Part shown: in pieces, positions 24,793-58,699 of the stretch
How positions within the stretch are numbered: position 1 is the first letter of the stretch
Layout of the letters: every line of letters begins with the position of its first letter
Assembly: GCA_900299425.1 (NCBI GenBank)
Contig: OMJU01000080.1
Coordinates: 1-61,199, forward strand
Source of the DNA: Candidatus Rokuibacteriota bacterium
GTDB taxonomy: Bacteria; Bacteroidota; Bacteroidia; Flavobacteriales; Flavobacteriaceae
DNA length: 61,199 bases
Direction of reading: 5' to 3'
Notes under the pieces: model-generated
What the model was told of the DNA's origin: nothing
The model's input: only the letters and a program-made list of their open reading frames with translations
The model's database searches: none
Position numbers and translations under genes: made by a program

Positions 24793-25914
24793 GTGACCAC
24801 AACCATATTGGTAGAATCAATTACAAAATCCACCCCATGTGAGTGGATCATTGGACAAGTGTGCATTAACGATTGGATCATCAATGCCATTGATCATGTG
24901 AATTCATTTATTCCCACGGTGAGTTCTCTAGGCATTAACGACCCAGATATGGATTGGACTGCGGCAATTGCAAAAAATTTAATTTGCCAGCAGGGGACTC
25001 CTTTTGATAGCTATTTCGGACCAAAGGATAATTAAAAACACACCTCCTTTACTGAGCAGAGTATTGCATGGCTATTGGAAGAATTAGCGGGCAATGCTCA
25101 AAGGCCCAGTGTATATCTCGACACAGATGATCTTCTGGGACCAGATGCGCTATGCATTTCAGGGCCAAACACTTTCTGGTTTGACACCTGTGTAGCCCCT
25201 GAAGTATTGGAATGGAATATTTCGAATAATTTAATTCTAATCGACTCAGATCAGCACAGTGTCACTGTGGAAGTAACAAATCCCACAAATGAGCAAGGTT
25301 ATATTGAAGCTGTTTTTCACGATCAAACCTTAAGAAAAACATTTTGGGTCGGAACCCCTGGACCTTCACCTGCACTTCAGGGCCCCGAGACTGTGCGCAC
25401 GGGTAGCACTGTAACCTACTCCGCAGACCAAGCTCCTGGAGCAAAAAGTTATCAATGGTACTTACCCTACCCTTTTGACATCCAAGCCCCATGTGACTAC
25501 ACTTCAACAAATTGGCAAGTACCCCCAGATGCCGGCCGCAACACCCAAGTATTTACCGGCTATGGCGGCTATAACGGACTTGTACAAGTCATGGGTGTTA
25601 ACGACTGCGGTGCAGGAGATGCCACAATTTTATCTGTTAGTCATAGCAACAATGGATCTGGCCAACAGCATTCCCCAGTATTTCCCTACCCAAATTCTTC
25701 TGACGATGCGTTTCATTTGGATTTCAGCAGTTTGAGTCCCGGAAACTATACCATTGATATTTATGACGCCATTGGCCAAAATGTATATTCCGGACAAAGC
25801 ACTAATGTTCAAAAAACAATAAATACACTCTCTATCGAAGGCGGTACATATTTCTTGCACGTCTCTGATTCAGAACAATTATGGCAATTTCAACTCATCA
25901 TTGATCATCATTGA
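24793..25914 (+). pseudogene. Decayed secreted protein gene with type IX sorting-like tail
   Basis: One reading frame of 374 codons, interrupted once by TAA at 25033-25035. Upstream the frame is closed by TAA at 24787-24789 and no signal peptide exists, so the 5' end is lost. After the stop the frame continues (GPDALCISGPNTFWF; a PKD-like segment PALQGPETVRTGSTVTY; GAKSYQWYLPYPF) into a C-terminal domain resembling the type IX secretion sorting tail (LSPGNYTIDIYDAIGQNVYSG ... GGTYFLHVSDS). Cargo of that system needs a Sec signal, which is missing. The original function cannot be told; the N-terminal 80 residues are unrecognised. Confidence 0.75.
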
Positions 25915-50133: not shown

Positions 50134-52065
50134 GTGTCACAACCCATCAACATAAGACTTTTTGAACTGGTCCTTGGGGTGAGTCTCGGGATAATGTTAG
50201 GACATTTCAGTGCAATCCCCATGCCTGATAGCAGACTTATCTATCTGAGCATTAGTTTAGTTTTAATCATCAGTTATTTGCTGAGTTTTTATTTAAATCC
50301 AAAACTATGGTGGATTTGTCGTATTTGGTTTTTTACCCTTTGGATTGCTTTGGGCTGCTTGCATTTTACATGGTCCAGGGCCCTGCCTGACTCAGCCTCG
50401 GCTGAACTTGATCAGCATCCTTTAAAAGCTAAGGACCTCAGCGGTGAAAAAGCGACACACTTAAATGCTGTAGTGATCAAACACCGCTTAAAACCCTGGG
50501 GGCAAACAACCAGGTATATGGCCCACTATTATCAAAAAAACAGCCATAAGCCTACCCGCATTGTTTTGCTTTGTCGTGACACCACACTTATCCAATTATT
50601 GGGGCCTGATAAAACACTTTGGACCAATAGTTCACCCAAGATCATCGAGCGCAACAAAAATCCTGGAGGCTTCGACCAAAAATCTTACTATTACAGTCAG
50701 GGTATTGAATTTGCAATGACCCTGAGTGCAAATCAAGTCTATTGTTGGCGCCTACATCCCTTGAGTTTAAGGGCTAAAGCCCAAAAAATCAATACAAAAC
50801 TGGCTCAATACTGGCGTGATGCCGCTATTTCAGCACAGGCACAGGCATTAGCTCTAGCCATAATTTTGGGACAAACCCAAGATCTGACTATTGAAGTCAA
50901 AAGCCAATTTGCCAGTGCTGGGGCCTTACATGTCTTGGCGCTTTCAGGCCTGCATGTGGGTTTGGTGGTGCTCCTGCTCCAATGGCTACTGCGACCGCTT
51001 AAAGCACTTCCATTTGGGATAAAAATTCAAGCCGTTATCCTTTTGGTGCTGCTATGGAGTTATGCATTTATTTGTGGACTCAGTCCTTCTATAACGCGAG
51101 CAGTTTGCATGTTTAGTATTTGGCAAATAGCACAAATTATTGGGCGTCCAGTATCCGGCAGTAACAGTGTATTGCTCTGTCTTATTCTGCTGCTTTGGTG
51201 GTCCCCGTATTGGCTTTTTTCAGTAGGATTTCAATTGAGTTTCAGTGCCGTGATGGCCTTGACTTACTTGCCGTCGCGCCTCAAAAAAATATGGCGTCCC
51301 CAAAACCGAATTTATCGCTATTTCATACAGCTCAGCACTGTAGGGGCAGCCGCACAGATCGGTGTCGGGCCACTGTCCATTTATTATTTCCATCAGTTCC
51401 CTTTAATGTTTTGGTTGAGTAATTTAATTGTCCTACCGCTGATGACTCCATTATTGATTTTGGGTTTATCCAACACCATGGGAAGTCTTATCACAGACAT
51501 ACCAAATATTTTTTTTGAGCTTTGGGATGAATTACTCCATGTAATTTTAAAGGCTGTTGTGTGGATTGCTTCACATGAGCATATGCTGTTAAAAGACCTG
51601 AATCTGAATCAATACACCCTTTGGAGCTATTACGCGATTGCCCTCTTGCTCTGGTGGGGGTTACAGCATCCATGGGTCCCTCGAAAAATTGTCTTTAGGA
51701 CCTTCTTGCCTTATCTATGTTGCATTTTATTAGCGGGCTATATCAGCAAAACACTATGGCGTCGCGATCCAGTGCCCCAATTGACAATTTTGCATCGCTT
51801 TGACAATACGCGCCTGATCGTACATGCTCCTGAGGGATTTAAAGAGCTTTTCAGAGGAAAGAATAAAATGAACCCAGACGGGTCAGATTGGTCCAGACAT
51901 TATGGAGTCAAACTTAAGGCTGAAAAACCATTGCCCACGGTGATGACTTTTGATGGATTGCCAGTAATTGTGGTGGACTCCACGGGCGTTTACCCACCGG
52001 TCAATAATGGCATTGTACTGCTCAGGGCCAATGCCAATATACATTTTGAAAAACTGGTTAATTAG
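50134..52065 (+). CDS. comEC: ComEC/Rec2 DNA-uptake channel, cut short by an in-frame TAG
   Basis: A 643-residue ComEC-type inner membrane protein. It has N-terminal helices and a DUF4131 region (1-230), the competence domain with the ALSGLHVGLV motif near 268 and many helices (240-530), then a soluble C-terminal part. It moves single-stranded DNA into the cytoplasm in natural transformation. The start is GTG after CTGGGGA. The frame is stopped by TAG at 52063-52065 but goes on without a further stop for 51 codons (52066-52218), including an ADGSN motif that belongs to ComEC C-termini in this group. So the last part of the protein is lost or made only by read-through. Confidence 0.88.
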   Translation: MSQPINIRLFELVLGVSLGIMLGHFSAIPMPDSRLIYLSISLVLIISYLLSFYLNPKLWWICRIWFFTLWIALGCLHFTWSRALPDSASAELDQHPLKAKDLSGEKATHLNAVVIKHRLKPWGQTTRYMAHYYQKNSHKPTRIVLLCRDTTLIQLLGPDKTLWTNSSPKIIERNKNPGGFDQKSYYYSQGIEFAMTLSANQVYCWRLHPLSLRAKAQKINTKLAQYWRDAAISAQAQALALAIILGQTQDLTIEVKSQFASAGALHVLALSGLHVGLVVLLLQWLLRPLKALPFGIKIQAVILLVLLWSYAFICGLSPSITRAVCMFSIWQIAQIIGRPVSGSNSVLLCLILLLWWSPYWLFSVGFQLSFSAVMALTYLPSRLKKIWRPQNRIYRYFIQLSTVGAAAQIGVGPLSIYYFHQFPLMFWLSNLIVLPLMTPLLILGLSNTMGSLITDIPNIFFELWDELLHVILKAVVWIASHEHMLLKDLNLNQYTLWSYYAIALLLWWGLQHPWVPRKIVFRTFLPYLCCILLAGYISKTLWRRDPVPQLTILHRFDNTRLIVHAPEGFKELFRGKNKMNPDGSDWSRHYGVKLKAEKPLPTVMTFDGLPVIVVDSTGVYPPVNNGIVLLRANANIHFEKLVN

Positions 52066-52221
52066 TTAACCCCATGCATCGTTCTGGCCGACGGGTCTAA
52101 TGCCCGGTATGTCATTGAACATTGGCGCGAACGGGCGCACTTTCTAAATCAAAAGTTTTTAGACACTTATAGTTCAGGTGCGATAGAAACTAGTGATGGC
52201 CAGTTTAAAAAGTACTTTTGA
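52066..52221 (+). pseudogene. Severed C-terminal tail of comEC
   Basis: Fifty-one codons in the same frame as comEC, directly after its TAG and ending in TGA at 52219-52221. The translation (LTPCIVLADGSNARYV, then HWRERAHFLNQKFLDTY) resembles the usual end of Bacteroidota ComEC, where an ADGSN/ADGTN motif follows. It has no start of its own. The end overlaps the convergent thioredoxin-like gene by 17 bases. Confidence 0.7.
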
Positions 52222-52801
52222 AGGCTGCTTGATATTCGGCCCACGCAGGCTCAGTGGTGATGTTTTTATAATCATCCGAGGCGACCATCTTTAAAAATAT
52301 TTCGAGTTCCTGGGCTGACTTGTAGCCCGGAAGCGCTTGAATCAATTCACCATTTTCGTCAAAAAACACCAGACTGGGATAGGCATTTATACGCAAGGCA
52401 TCGGCAAAAAAATGCTGGGCGTTGCGCCCCTTGCGCTCGGGTTGATGGTTTGGATTGGTGTATGTAAAATCCTTGTAGGTAATTGACTCAGTACCCTCTC
52501 CATTAAACTTAACGGCGTAATAATGCTTGTTTACATAGCGCACCAAACGCTTGTTGGAAAAGGTATTTTTATCCAGCATCTTGCAAGGCCCGCACCAGTC
52601 TGTATAAACGTCCATAAAGATCTTTTTGGGTTTTTGAGCCTGAGCCGCCAAAGCCTCATTCATGGTCATCCATTTAATCTGCGCCTGAGATTGAACAGTG
52701 CTCAAACTAAAAACAATCAGCAAACCCAGGGTTATTTTATACCCTACCAATTCTCGCCTGGTTCCCCGAGTCAAAGGCTCATCGGTAAGTAGTCGATTCA
52801 T
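52205..52801 (-). CDS. Exported thioredoxin-fold protein, copy 1
   Basis: A 198-residue thioredoxin-like protein with a long basic N-region and signal helix (about 24-41, cleaved near SQAQ). The active site WCGPC lies near residue 70 in a DVYTDWCGPCKMLDKNTFS-type context typical of DUF255-like/thioredoxin_7 proteins. It should reduce or exchange disulfides in the periplasm. It is a tandem paralog of the gene before it, joined by an ATGA overlap; the WMT/SMNEAL-A-AQ and NHY/NENFY-VKFNGEG segments correspond. Confidence 0.88.
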   Translation of the reverse strand: MNRLLTDEPLTRGTRRELVGYKITLGLLIVFSLSTVQSQAQIKWMTMNEALAAQAQKPKKIFMDVYTDWCGPCKMLDKNTFSNKRLVRYVNKHYYAVKFNGEGTESITYKDFTYTNPNHQPERKGRNAQHFFADALRINAYPSLVFFDENGELIQALPGYKSAQELEIFLKMVASDDYKNITTEPAWAEYQAAFKSTF

Positions 52802-53343
52802 TGAAAACTGGGTTTGAAATTAGCAACATAATTATCGTAAGCCTCTTGAGTGCGTACACTTTTCCATAAATCAGTGCCAAAAAATCTAAGGAATAACTCA
52901 AGCTGCGGGGGGGTCCTATAGCCCCGAACACTTTTGATTAGTCCCCCTGATTCATCCATAAATACAACCGTTGGGTAAGCGCGTATGCCCAAATAACTAG
53001 AAAACTCATGTACTGAATTTCGCCGTTTGGCCTTAGCGGGATCATATCGGGGATTGTCATAGGTTTTACCCTTGTATACGATGGTTTCATCCCCTTCTCC
53101 ATTGAACTTTACAGGATAAAAATTTTCATTGATAAAGGCGGCAAGTTGTGGATTGCTGAAGGTATTTCGGTCGTAGAGCTTACAGGGCCCACACCAAACG
53201 GTGTAAACATCCATAAAGATTTTTTTAGGATTTGATTTTTGTGCCGTGAGCGCCTCACTTAACGACATCCATTGAACCTCTTGGGCCACAACAGTTGAGC
53301 TCAACAATACCAAAATTATCAGTACAAATGATTTAAATCTCAT
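52798..53343 (-). CDS. Exported thioredoxin-fold protein, copy 2
   Basis: A 181-residue protein with signal peptide (1-20, MRFKSFVLIIL start, cleaved at VVAQ) and active site WCGPC near residue 50. It is closely similar to the following gene along its whole length and shows a recent or maintained tandem duplication. An in-frame ATG at 53379 would place 12 polar residues before the signal peptide, so 53343 is preferred. The transporter gene 45 bases upstream is on the same strand. Confidence 0.88.
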   Translation of the reverse strand: MRFKSFVLIILVLLSSTVVAQEVQWMSLSEALTAQKSNPKKIFMDVYTVWCGPCKLYDRNTFSNPQLAAFINENFYPVKFNGEGDETIVYKGKTYDNPRYDPAKAKRRNSVHEFSSYLGIRAYPTVVFMDESGGLIKSVRGYRTPPQLELFLRFFGTDLWKSVRTQEAYDNYVANFKPSFQ

Positions 53344-53388
53344 ATGCTTGTCGACACAAAAATCAAGCCATTTAGCCATACCGCCGAA

Positions 53389-55146
53389 TTAGCGCACTCC
53401 GTGCATTAATTTTTTAATGATCGGATACATCAGTGCAGAAAATACCGCTAAACCTACAGCCACAAAAGTAAGCATCCAGAAGAAGGTACTCAATCCTTCA
53501 GACTGGGCGATTTCCTCAGAAGCCTCTCCAAAGACCCCAGCGAGTTTCATCCCAATAGCGACGGCCAAATACCAAACACCAAACATCATGGCAATCATGC
53601 GTCCTGGTACAAGCTTACTGACATAAGAAAGGGCCACTGGTGAAATACATAACTCACCCATAGTGTGGAAGAAATAAACCAATATCAACCATATAATACT
53701 CACCGAAGCCGTTTCTGCACCCACTGGAATATCTGAGGCACCTACAGCAACACAGGCCATCCCCAATCCCAGTAGAAACATCCCTATAGCATATTTCATA
53801 TTGGCATTTGGGTTGAATTTACTTTCCCACCAGCGTGAGAACAAGGGCGCAAATGTGATGATAAACAAGGAATTCAAAATACCAAACCAAGAAGCGTCAA
53901 TTTCGGCAACGTCTTGACTGAATTTATCATTTAAGCGATAAAGTGCAATAGCCCAGATGATGATAAAACTCAATCCCAAAATAATATTCGACCACTTGTA
54001 GGTGGTAAAGGTCTTACCGAAGAGTTTGAAAAGCACCCAGGTAATAACCCCTAGCGGCACTATGGTCACCAATGCATCTACTACCTTAAAAATCATGGCA
54101 GAATTGCCCTCAAGCATGCGATCGGTATAATCCCGCGCAAAAATCGTTAAAGAACTCGGGGCTTGTTCAAAAATGGCCCAGAAGAAGATGGTAATGAAGG
54201 CAAAAAACATAACCGCTAACATACGGTCCTTCGTGATTTTGTCGTAGCGTGGCAAACGGATGGCCAGCAAAAGGATGAACAATCCTAGAGCGAGCAAAAT
54301 CATGAACGAAGACCCCCCTAAACCGGCGATGTCAAAATCAAATAAGTTGTAGGCCCCTTCTGAGATTTTGGACACGGGATCGTTGATCATCCAGGCTAAT
54401 CCAATAATCGCAGCCAAAGCGATAATGCCTAACTGAAAATTAGTAAATGGGTTTAACTTTGGCTCGTCTGGTCCGAGCTCAACTTGATCTTGAGCCTGCT
54501 TCTTTGGTTTGAGACCAATGCTACCAAAAATGTCTTGGGCCCACCAGAATTGCAACAATCCAAAAAGCATAAAAATACCTGCTAATCCAAAGCCCCAGGA
54601 CCAACCGACTTGTTCTCCCATATAGCCACAAAGCAAAATACCTAAAAATGCTCCTGCATTAACCCCCATGTAGAAAATCGTATAGGCTCCGTCCTTTTTT
54701 TCTGGGCGAGATGCGTACATGGCAGAGATAATCGAGGTCATATTTGGCTTAAAAAACCCACTACCAAAAACCAATAGAATAAGCCCTGTGTAGATAAAAA
54801 ACTCGGTTTCTAAGGCCATACAAGCATGGCCTAAAGTCATGAGTAATGCCCCAACCAAGATGGCGTATCTGAACCCTATTTTTCGATCTGAGACATAACC
54901 CCCGAGCAGTGTGGAGAGATAAACCATCGATGTATAAGTGCCAAAAATAGCAAAGGCATATTCACGCGGCCAGCCCCAGCCTTGATCCAATAGGGAAGCC
55001 GTGAAAAACATAACCAAAAGAGCCCGCATTCCATAATAAGAAAAACGCTCCCACATTTCGGTAAAAAACAATACAAAAAGTCCTGCTGGATGACCTAGTA
55101 CTTTGTCTTTGAATAAGTTTTCGATATCGGTATTCATAGTTGTCAA
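53389..55146 (-). CDS. POT family peptide transporter (longer copy)
   Basis: A 585-residue proton-coupled oligopeptide transporter of the MFS superfamily with about 14 helices. POT marks are FFTEMWERFSYYGMRA near residue 28 (the ExxER-like motif) and ELCISPVALSYVSKL near 500. It has an extra region between helices 6 and 8 (about 210-300) compared with its shorter neighbour. It imports di- and tripeptides. The neighbour is 4 bases away. Confidence 0.93.
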   Translation of the reverse strand: MTTMNTDIENLFKDKVLGHPAGLFVLFFTEMWERFSYYGMRALLVMFFTASLLDQGWGWPREYAFAIFGTYTSMVYLSTLLGGYVSDRKIGFRYAILVGALLMTLGHACMALETEFFIYTGLILLVFGSGFFKPNMTSIISAMYASRPEKKDGAYTIFYMGVNAGAFLGILLCGYMGEQVGWSWGFGLAGIFMLFGLLQFWWAQDIFGSIGLKPKKQAQDQVELGPDEPKLNPFTNFQLGIIALAAIIGLAWMINDPVSKISEGAYNLFDFDIAGLGGSSFMILLALGLFILLLAIRLPRYDKITKDRMLAVMFFAFITIFFWAIFEQAPSSLTIFARDYTDRMLEGNSAMIFKVVDALVTIVPLGVITWVLFKLFGKTFTTYKWSNIILGLSFIIIWAIALYRLNDKFSQDVAEIDASWFGILNSLFIITFAPLFSRWWESKFNPNANMKYAIGMFLLGLGMACVAVGASDIPVGAETASVSIIWLILVYFFHTMGELCISPVALSYVSKLVPGRMIAMMFGVWYLAVAIGMKLAGVFGEASEEIAQSEGLSTFFWMLTFVAVGLAVFSALMYPIIKKLMHGVR

Positions 55147-55150
55147 TATT

Positions 55151-56488
55151 TTAGTGTTCGGTATCTTCTATACCATGGGTTAAAACTTCTAATTTCTTTC
55201 TGAACAGCAATACGACCAATCCGAAGACCACGCAAAAGACGGCGATCCCAGTAAATATCGTAAACTCTCCATAAGTTGAGGCTGATTCGCCAAGTAGACC
55301 CGCGAGCTTATTGCCAAAACCAGTCATGGCAAAATAAACCCCCATCATCAGTGAGGCGTATTTAAGTGGTGCTAGTTTTGTGATGTACGACAGGGCTACT
55401 GGAGAGATACACAGCTCACCCACAGTATGGAATAAATAAGCCAAAACCAACCAATACATGGCTGATGATCCTGTGGTCTCAAATTCGGTTGAGGCAGCAG
55501 ACATAAAGAAAAATCCTGTACCCATAATGATCAATCCGATGATCATTTTGAATAGTGAAGTCGATAATTTTCCACGCAATTTGCGCTTAGCCCAATAAGC
55601 TGCTACAGTTGTTCCCAAGAAAATGATAAACATCGCATTTAAGGACTGAAACCAAGAGGCTGGCACTTCTAGACCAAAGAGCATACGATTAGTATTCTCC
55701 ATGGCGTAAATATTCATGAGTCCTCCTGCTTGCTCAAAAGCACCCCAAAAAACAATCACTAGGAAAAATGAAAGAAATAAGACGACAACACGGTCTTTTT
55801 CGATTTTGGTTAACGGTCTATTCATGGCCTCAATTTCGGCTTCGTCGGTAGAACTTCCCAAGTAATTACCGACATCTTTGAGGTATTTTTGACCAAGAAC
55901 ATACTGAATTAATCCCAGAGTCATCCCAATACCTGCGAGCCCAAAACCGTAATGCCAACCCATAACTTCACCTACATAACCCACAATCAGACTCGATAAA
56001 AATGCGCCGAGATTAATGCCGATATAAAAAATGGTAAACCCTTTATCACGACGAATGTCACCGGGCTTATAGAGCCCACCAACCATAGTGGAAATATTTG
56101 GCTTGAGCATCCCAACACCAGCGATGATTAAAGAAAGGCCCGAGTAAAACGCCCACATCTGTTCAATGGCTAGAATACTGTGTCCAAAAACTAAAAGGAT
56201 TCCACCGTAAAGAACGGATTTCTTTTGACCAAAAAATTTATCGGCCAACCACCCACCTGGTATTGAAGCCACATAAACCAGCATGGTATACCAACCGTAA
56301 AGTGCTAGGGCGCTTTCATTGGCCCAGCCCAATCCAGCATTAGTTGCATCAGTTTGTGAGACTAGATAAAGCACGAGAATCGCACGCATTCCATAATAAG
56401 AAAAGCGCTCCCACATTTCAGTAAAAAAGAGCACAAAAAGTCCCAGAGGATGTCCAAAAAATTCTTTGGTTGTGGTAGATGCTGTCAT
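55151..56488 (-). CDS. POT family peptide transporter (shorter copy)
   Basis: A 445-residue paralog of the next gene, about 140 residues shorter, with the same FFTEMWERFSYYGMRA and ELCISPVALSYITKL motifs and about 12 helices. It imports small peptides with protons. It lies between the DPP-IV peptidase gene (18-base gap) and the longer copy, forming a peptide-use module with them. Confidence 0.92.
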   Translation of the reverse strand: MTASTTTKEFFGHPLGLFVLFFTEMWERFSYYGMRAILVLYLVSQTDATNAGLGWANESALALYGWYTMLVYVASIPGGWLADKFFGQKKSVLYGGILLVFGHSILAIEQMWAFYSGLSLIIAGVGMLKPNISTMVGGLYKPGDIRRDKGFTIFYIGINLGAFLSSLIVGYVGEVMGWHYGFGLAGIGMTLGLIQYVLGQKYLKDVGNYLGSSTDEAEIEAMNRPLTKIEKDRVVVLFLSFFLVIVFWGAFEQAGGLMNIYAMENTNRMLFGLEVPASWFQSLNAMFIIFLGTTVAAYWAKRKLRGKLSTSLFKMIIGLIIMGTGFFFMSAASTEFETTGSSAMYWLVLAYLFHTVGELCISPVALSYITKLAPLKYASLMMGVYFAMTGFGNKLAGLLGESASTYGEFTIFTGIAVFCVVFGLVVLLFRKKLEVLTHGIEDTEH

Positions 56489-56506: not shown

Positions 56507-57094
56507 TTAATTATTGATTAGGTTATTTTGAATAAAATCGGTCATTTTTCGGTATAGATGATCACGGGTGTAACCCCCATAAATCCCGTGATTTTTATCG
56601 GGATAGATGAGCCAGTCAAAGGGCTTATTGGCCCTGACTAAAGCATCGATCAATCGCATAGAATTCTGTACATGTACATTATCGTCTGCCGTTCCGTGTA
56701 CCAAGAGTAAAGCACCAGACATGTTCGACACGTGATCTAGTGGCGCATAGGCGTCATAGCCCACTGCATTGTCTTGAGGCAGCCCCATATAACGCTCTGT
56801 ATAAATAGAGTCATAAAATCGCCATGAAGTTACCGGGGCTACGGAGATGGCTGTGGAAAAGACCCCCTGACCTTGAAAAAGACAGTTTGCAGACATAAAG
56901 CCCCCATAGCTCCATCCCCAAATTCCAATTTTCTCTGGATCCACATAAGACCACTGGGCGATCTTTTGTGCTGCCGCGATTTGATCTTGGACCTCATACA
57001 ATCCCAATTTACCCTGGGTCATTTTTTTAAAATCTCGCCCTTTAAGTCCCGTGCCTCGACCATCCACACATACGACGATCAAACCTTGATTCAC
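56507..57094 (-). pseudogene. DPP-IV type S9 peptidase, C-terminal half of a gene split by TAG
   Basis: This stretch encodes the alpha/beta-hydrolase domain of a prolyl oligopeptidase family (S9B) dipeptidyl peptidase. The catalytic serine is in GWSYGG, the aspartate in GTADDNVH and the histidine in DKNHGIYGG, so the whole triad is here. It is in the same frame as the upstream half at 57110-58699, with only TAG (57112-57110) and five sense codons (WHQYL) between. Read as one protein the gene has 729 residues, the usual size. A start from the GTG at 57094 would lack the propeller and signal peptide. Confidence 0.85.
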
Positions 57095-57109
57095 TAGATA
57101 TTGATGCCA

Positions 57110-58699
57110 CTAATCATTAGAACTATTCCATCGATCCGACACCTGTTGAGACCCTGGACCACTGTACTGATACATCAATACTGGATATTTTTTAGTAGTG
57201 TCAATAACGCGTGGCTTGATGGTATAGGTGTTGAGCCAATGCCCATTGATAAATAAGCTATCAAAAGTCTTGGGATTTAAGTCATAGTCCTTAATTAAGG
57301 CGCTCAGAGCCGAATTGTCTTCCAAAACACGCAGCTGGGTACCATCTAGACCTGAATGCAAGGTATACACATAAGGACTTGTACTGGAAGAATGGCTTTG
57401 GATATAATGACTGAAATCCGCACTAAAATCGGCGCTATTGGTGCCCTTATCTTGAGAAAAACGAACCATATTAGTACCGGAGATATTCATCGAATAGATG
57501 TCTCTGTAAATGCTTCCTCGCTTGGAGGATTGAAAATACAATCGACCGATTTTGGGGTTAAACCCATAATACGCAGTCACATCATAATTCCCCTGAGTAA
57601 GTTGACGAATCAATGCCCCTTGGGCATTGTAATGATATAAATGACGCCAGCCATCTTGCTCACTCGGCCAAATAAAACTATTGTCGTTTAAAAAGGTCAA
57701 ATCATCATGAATGTCCACATAAGCCGCGTCCGTCTCTCTGAGTAAAACTTGAATTTGATTTTCGCGCAGATCAACCTGAAGCATTACAAGCTCATTTTGA
57801 GCTCTATTGAGCAATTGTACGGCCAATTGATCCGGATTCTTGGTCCATTTAATGCGTGGAATATATTCATAGGGCAATTGTGATAAATCAACATCAGTGG
57901 TCACTTTTTCCTTTAGAGCATATACATGAAGGGAAACCTCAGCGTTCTTTTCCCCGGCCTTTGGATATTTAAACACACTCTGCTCAGGATATAGCCCTTG
58001 CCCATAAACGTCCATTGAAAATTCGGGCACATCGGATTCATCAAAACGCAAATAAGCCAAATAATCACCTTCACGACTCCACTGATACGCTTGTACAAAA
58101 CCAAACTCCTCCTCGTATACCCAGTCTGACAGGCCATTGATGATATGGTTCTGGATGCCATCGGTGGTCACCTGAACGCCTTTCTGTTCTGAAATGATCC
58201 AATAATATAAATTATTGGCTCGGACAAAGCCCAAAAGCCGGCCGTCTGGACTAAAAGTAACTTCTTGCAAATCCGGCCCTTCAACCTGCACCAATGAGTT
58301 ATCGGACAGATTGTACAAATAATGCTGGGCAAAATATGAATGTCTGTATTGTGCTTTGCGCTGGGTTTTGATCAAAATTTTCTGTTCATCAGGACTCAGT
58401 TCATAATCAAAAACACCCTGTAACTGCGGATAGTTATTGCTGCTGAATATCACCCCTAACTTTTGCCCGGAGCCATAGTCGTATTTATTGATTTCCATGG
58501 CCTTAGAGGTGTCGCTGCGCTCAAGAACAGTGAAATGTTCTCCGTCTGACATACTGCGAATAGATTGAGGTCCCGCAGCCGAAAATTGACCATTCCATAT
58601 TTCATCAAGGTTAAGGGAGCGTTCTTGAGCAAAAAGGGGCGCAGAGAAAAAAACACCAATCACAATGGCTAACAAAGCCCTCACATCGCGTCGTATCAT
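57110..58699 (-). pseudogene. DPP-IV type S9 peptidase, N-terminal half of a gene split by TAG
   Basis: The first 529 codons of the S9B peptidase: signal peptide (1-24) and the eight-bladed DPPIV N-terminal beta-propeller (about 60-480, with SDWVYEEEFG near 190, the loop holding the two glutamates that bind the peptide amino terminus), ending at VSDRWNSSND before TAG. Relatives have a tyrosine here (NDYW), so TAT or TAC to TAG is the likely change. Without the other half no active enzyme is possible unless the stop is read through. It removes N-terminal X-Pro dipeptides in the periplasm when intact. Confidence 0.85.

Follow-up and report, generated by a model that had tools for sequence, protein, structure and literature searches.

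The dpp4 locus and its gene block

The window, meaning the whole stretch of 61,199 nucleotides that was analysed, corresponds to contig C80 in a 1.79 Mb draft assembly. The assembly is 83% complete in 165 contigs, which suggests that it is metagenome-derived. Near one end of the window, a dpp4 gene and the genes that follow it are arranged on the minus strand as listed here.

56507-58699, minus strand: dpp4 (dipeptidyl peptidase IV) frame of 731 codons with one in-frame TAG (translation, Pfam, phmmer)
57113-58699, minus strand: N-terminal 529 codons, with a signal-peptide-like start (judged by eye), the DPPIV_N propeller and the first hydrolase part (YQYSGPGSQ at residue 510)
57110-57112, minus strand: in-frame TAG at codon 530, where the 109 other loci compared all have a sense codon
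56507-57109, minus strand: C-terminal 200 codons, the Peptidase_S9 part with GWSYGG (595), HGTADDNVH (668) and KNHGIYGG (702)
55151-56488, minus strand: POT-family peptide transporter, the next gene after dpp4 (TIGR00924, 357.3 bits; block in relatives)
53389-55146, minus strand: second POT-family peptide transporter (TIGR00924, 285.8 bits; block in relatives)
52798-53379, minus strand: thioredoxin-like protein (PF13098; block in relatives)
52205-52801, minus strand: second thioredoxin-like protein (PF13098; block in relatives)

Translation gives one reading frame of 731 codons with stops solely at codon 530 (TAG) and codon 731 (TAA), in agreement with the initial annotation, which had described a frame of this length with a single TAG. 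The residues NSSND stand directly before the TAG and WHQYLV directly after it. With an X placed at the stop, the protein matches the full profile of PF00930 (DPPIV_N) with 335 bits over residues 102-443 and PF00326 (Peptidase_S9) with 199.9 bits over residues 531-727. The best match to a solved structure, found with phmmer, is 5olj, a dipeptidyl peptidase IV (621 bits, residues 9-727). The motifs GWSYGG, HGTADDNVH and KNHGIYGG are all present, and their roles as the catalytic Ser, Asp and His are presumed from the family. The propeller and the catalytic triad had been described as preserved, and these matches bear this out. The motif DWVYEEEF at residue 192 holds the Glu pair to which the N terminus of the substrate binds in this family, and it aligns with DWVYEEEFG of 5olj; such a pair is named for the DPP4 of Porphyromonas gingivalis in excerpts of PMC8048996.

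The encoded protein is, as predicted from these matches, a dipeptidyl peptidase IV. The frame shares the propeller and Peptidase_S9 along its whole length with bacterial dipeptidyl peptidase IV (peptidase family S9B; PDB 5olj, 7y4f/7y4g), but it is broken by the TAG at codon 530, so that it is not one uninterrupted reading frame.

The dpp4 gene is the first gene of a conserved block. The order dpp4, two POT genes and two thioredoxin-like genes is complete in five relatives (G001, G002, G003, G004 and G005), and the same dpp4-POT-POT-thioredoxin-like block reaches the contig end in two more (G006 and G007). The claim that dpp4 adjoins two peptide transporters is thus correct, and the arrangement is found in relatives as well.

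Codon 530 in related genes

The gene was compared across 110 homologous loci, including the window's own copy, and the comparison set therefore consists of the other 109. All aligned sequences (110) are mutually different. Across the family, 122 of the 149 genomes searched, the window's genome included, have a match at E values up to 1e-150, and of the 80 nearest loci listed, those with a named record are mostly Flavobacteriaceae. Column 530 is a sense codon in all 109 loci, coding for Tyr in 92, Met in nine, Phe in six and Leu in two, and from this spread it follows that Tyr is not the sole residue tolerated at this position. Tyr had been given as the residue of relatives (NDYW), and it is indeed the usual one. 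A comparison with close relatives, which had been proposed as a check, covered seven other same-genus species, each of which carries dpp4, and gave Tyr at codon 530 in every one; in G007, dpp4 is split over two contigs and present in two pieces.

Read residue by residue, the 109 loci are free of stops through aligned residue 725, and nine of them have a TAA at 728. The genome tables give one or two stops for many other species in the column stops_inside. Among the loci seen, the TAG at codon 530 is thus private to the window's assembly.

Integrity of the frame and predicted effect of the stop

No frameshift was found in dpp4, and the genes of three same-genus relatives (L003, L004 and L005) align with it in one piece over residues 1-730. 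The window copy has no deviations in the 119 columns that are at least 99% identical among the other loci, 63 of them before the stop and 56 after it, and two same-genus relatives likewise have none. The statement that no other damage is visible therefore holds for dpp4, which has no second stop, no frameshift and no change in any near-invariant column. Signs of an old pseudogene, namely further damage and changes at conserved positions, were looked for in dpp4 and none were found; a second frameshift or other decay, either of which according to the initial annotation would make the gene an ordinary pseudogene, was not seen in it.

After the stop, dN is 0.051 between the window and L003, 0.072 between the window and L005, and 0.073 between L003 and L005, and is thus no larger than between intact relatives. 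A comparison of dN/dS before and after the stop is unusable because dS is saturated, being infinite or at least 1.45 for all pairs except L003-L004. With dS saturated, the intact frame leaves three readings: a stop that is young relative to the species split, a wrong base, or a gene still in use.

The TAG interrupts the hydrolase part: YQYSGPGSQ (starting at 510) precedes it, and the motifs at 595, 668 and 702 follow it. Since translation would end before the presumed catalytic triad, the product as written should be inactive and the allele should be null. The longest open reading frame of the C-terminal part has 195 codons and a GTG start at 57094. A dipeptidyl peptidase query gave one match in the 83% complete assembly, and a second copy of dipeptidyl peptidase IV was not found there. 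Strong S9 matches on C66 and C117 were considered as a spare dipeptidyl peptidase IV and rejected, their propeller being that of prolyl oligopeptidase (PF02897) and not DPPIV_N; two weak S9 matches are also present, on C71 and C110.

Decoding of TAG in the assembly

Release factor 1 (RF1) is present in the assembly, with 476.8 bits against a curated cut-off of 423.25. A CUA anticodon was not found among 26 tRNA matches, an incomplete set in which tRNA-Tyr was also not found. TAG terminates eight of the 49 window open reading frames counted, the early stop of the comEC-like gene being one of these eight; the 11 others of the 60 were left out, ten as overlapping larger open reading frames and one as the N-terminal dpp4 piece. 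Together, the presence of RF1, the lack of a CUA anticodon among the tRNAs found and the TAG-ended open reading frames argue against TAG recoding and make read-through unlikely.

Stray in-frame stops elsewhere

A sample of 614.6 kb, consisting of the window and 40 further stretches and amounting to 34% of 1,789 kb, was scanned for stray in-frame stops by codon usage and by comparison with open reading frames from parts of five same-genus assemblies. The thresholds of a first codon-usage scan (283.0 kb) overlooked even the dpp4 stop and were then loosened, after which 55 places were listed in 614.6 kb, most of them resembling ordinary neighbouring genes. Candidates from the codon-usage scan, which covered the assembly itself and not the controls, were chosen by eye and then checked against relatives. 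At least seven stray in-frame stops were identified in the sample, three TAG and four TAA, and three of them lie inside the window.

Stray stop 1, 57110-57112, minus strand: TAG in dpp4; mostly Tyr in relatives
Stray stop 2, 52063-52065, plus strand: TAG in a comEC-like gene (50134-52221); five relatives have Glu (two), Asp (two) or Gln (one)
Stray stop 3, 25033-25035, plus strand: TAA in a secreted-protein remnant with Por_Secre_tail (24796-25914); Glu in two relatives
Stray stop 4, L171:9874-9876 (G000:C60:29874-29876), minus strand: TAG in an NAD-dependent epimerase gene (L171:9034-10065); of six same-genus relatives, three have Leu and three have Ile
Stray stop 5, L202:1621 (G000:C149), plus strand: TAA in an SLBB-domain polysaccharide-export-like gene (L202:1417-1929); Gln in two relatives
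Stray stop 6, L194:12083 (G000:C100), plus strand: TAA in the gene of a protein that matches no Pfam family; Tyr in the single relative compared
Stray stop 7, L201:15099 (G000:C71), plus strand: TAA in an esterase gene (L201:14562-15296); Ser in four close relatives

The two further stops of the window, at 52063-52065 (comEC) and 25033-25035 (remnant), are absent from the initial annotation. In the comEC-like gene, 51 more codons follow the TAG until the next stop. The remnant near 25 kb matches residues 649-1020 alone of a 1020-residue relative, and true gene decay therefore occurs in the assembly too. The epimerase gene is otherwise one frame, and its TAG is preceded by a GAT codon, like the dpp4 TAG. 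A frameshift is visible by eye in the SLBB-domain gene near position 1440, just upstream of its TAA. The esterase gene has an open stretch of 245 codons, as against 304-315 in four relatives, and is shorter at its 5' side, which points to possible damage upstream too; two distant relatives have Leu and Thr at the site of its stop.

Stops 4, 5 and 7 were detected by the codon-usage scan alone. The homology scan, in which four stops were retained in 251.3 kb of the assembly itself, was also applied to two better-assembled relatives, where two were retained in 268.5 kb (G004) and none in 184.3 kb (G003); within this homology-covered sequence the excess over the two relatives is not significant (p = 0.20). 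Before selection, the scan gave seven, four and no places, respectively. Three places of the own sample were dropped, L175:15199 as a 61-residue match near a tRNA gene and L187:5586 and L198:5242 as gene boundaries by eye. In G004, L211:19636 was dropped because it lies just upstream of a start, and L212:15174 as a shadow frame. An earlier version of the scan had listed 23 places in the own sample, 11 in G004 and none in G003, mostly shadow frames. A search for frameshifts by homology listed none in the assembly itself, G004 or G003, and it overlooked the frameshift seen by eye in L202. G004, which belongs to the same genus and comprises about 20 contigs, has stray in-frame TAA codons at L257:3333 and L213:7394, both on the plus strand. 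Stray stops are thus not confined to the window's assembly, and within that assembly the dpp4 TAG is not exceptional.

Origin of the dpp4 stop

A nonsense mutation, a sequencing error and read-through had been offered as explanations of the TAG. This is the right list, but read-through is disfavoured, as none of the 109 other loci share the stop and as other stray TAG and TAA codons stand at sites with differing residues in relatives. Very probably, the TAG reflects a nonsense change confined to one codon, without special decoding, that stems from very recent mutation or from an error in the sequence, because the stop is private to this assembly, the frame is undecayed, at least seven stray stops occur in the sample, RF1 is present and TAG ends other open reading frames. 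Translation would end at codon 530 and yield a protein of 529 residues that lacks the Ser, Asp and His presumed to be catalytic. The source of the change would be a mutation that arose very recently in the sampled population or a base-calling or consensus error of the draft assembly, and these two are about equally likely. That it is purely such an error, the gene of the organism being intact, has a little less than an even chance; it fits the draft state of the assembly (165 contigs, 83% complete), the occurrence of stray stops in otherwise intact-looking genes (dpp4 and the epimerase gene), and the mixture of TAG and TAA at sites with mixed residues in relatives. At a stop share of 4.4% among random coding substitutions, however, seven errors would imply about 160 substitution errors in 614.6 kb, which is high for a consensus, and an error is therefore not preferred over a mutation. 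The real decay of the gene near 25 kb and the two such stops in a relative in fewer contigs (about 20) also weigh against an explanation by error alone.

The other readings keep some function for the sequence behind the stop. Functional read-through, in which enough ribosomes pass the TAG to make some active enzyme, possibly as a means of lowering its amount, is improbable. The undecayed frame after the stop favours it, since such a frame is also expected of a leaky gene that is still used, and a suppressor tRNA could lie in the missing part of the incomplete tRNA set. In the excerpted text of Belinky et al. 2021 (PMC7918605), it is argued that many in-frame stops of bacteria are frequently read through, and the dpp4 case resembles theirs as a single in-frame stop in an otherwise constrained gene. 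However, their set, according to the same excerpt, was kept to stops common to orthologues of at least two species to reduce artefacts, whereas the dpp4 stop recurs in none of the 109 relatives; RF1, the lack of CUA among the tRNAs seen and the termination of other open reading frames at TAG also speak against read-through. It is likewise quite improbable that the TAG is real and leaky, with an intact dpp4 frame maintained in a population behind a stop that limits peptidase output, and perhaps with comEC, epimerase and esterase held down by stray stops in the same way.

That the enzyme is put together from two chains, the second restarted at the GTG at 57094, deserves very little credence. The 195-codon open reading frame with a GTG start shortly after the stop would allow it, but the cut falls inside the hydrolase part, between YQYSGPGSQ and the triad motifs, no signal peptide is visible by eye in the second piece, and none of the 109 relatives is split at codon 530. 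Recoding of TAG as an amino acid in this organism can practically be dismissed, even though TAG accounts for three of the seven stray stops and tRNA-Tyr is missing from the tRNAs found. The other four stray stops are TAA, and the three TAG sites have mostly Tyr, Glu/Gln/Asp and Leu/Ile in relatives, which one residue does not fit. Over all seven stops, the sites have Tyr, Glu/Gln/Asp, Glu, Leu/Ile, Gln, Tyr and Ser, and two kinds of stop at sites with at least five different residues cannot be explained by reassignment to a single residue. A reassigned TAG code was rejected on these mixed residues at TAG sites, together with the TAG-ended open reading frames, the presence of RF1 and the lack of CUA in the incomplete tRNA set.

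Meaning of the finding

Under the preferred reading, a nonsense change without special decoding, the dpp4 TAG is an isolated nonsense codon of an ordinary sort within a conserved gene for a peptidase, and it is of little importance by itself. A lone stop in an otherwise clean gene should be weighed against how often stray stops occur in that assembly and in its relatives. The label of a peptide-use module, given to the dpp4 block in the initial annotation, seems a fair description when compared with the dipeptidyl peptidases and POT transporter of P. gingivalis. In that species, according to excerpts of PMC8048996, periplasmic dipeptidyl peptidases including DPP4 produce dipeptides that enter mainly via a POT transporter. 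In the window, dpp4 is the immediate neighbour of two POT genes and a thioredoxin-like pair, whereas the word "operon" is absent from the main text of the P. gingivalis paper (PMC8048996). The dpp4 gene, the two POT genes and the thioredoxin-like pair form a block that is kept in this genus.
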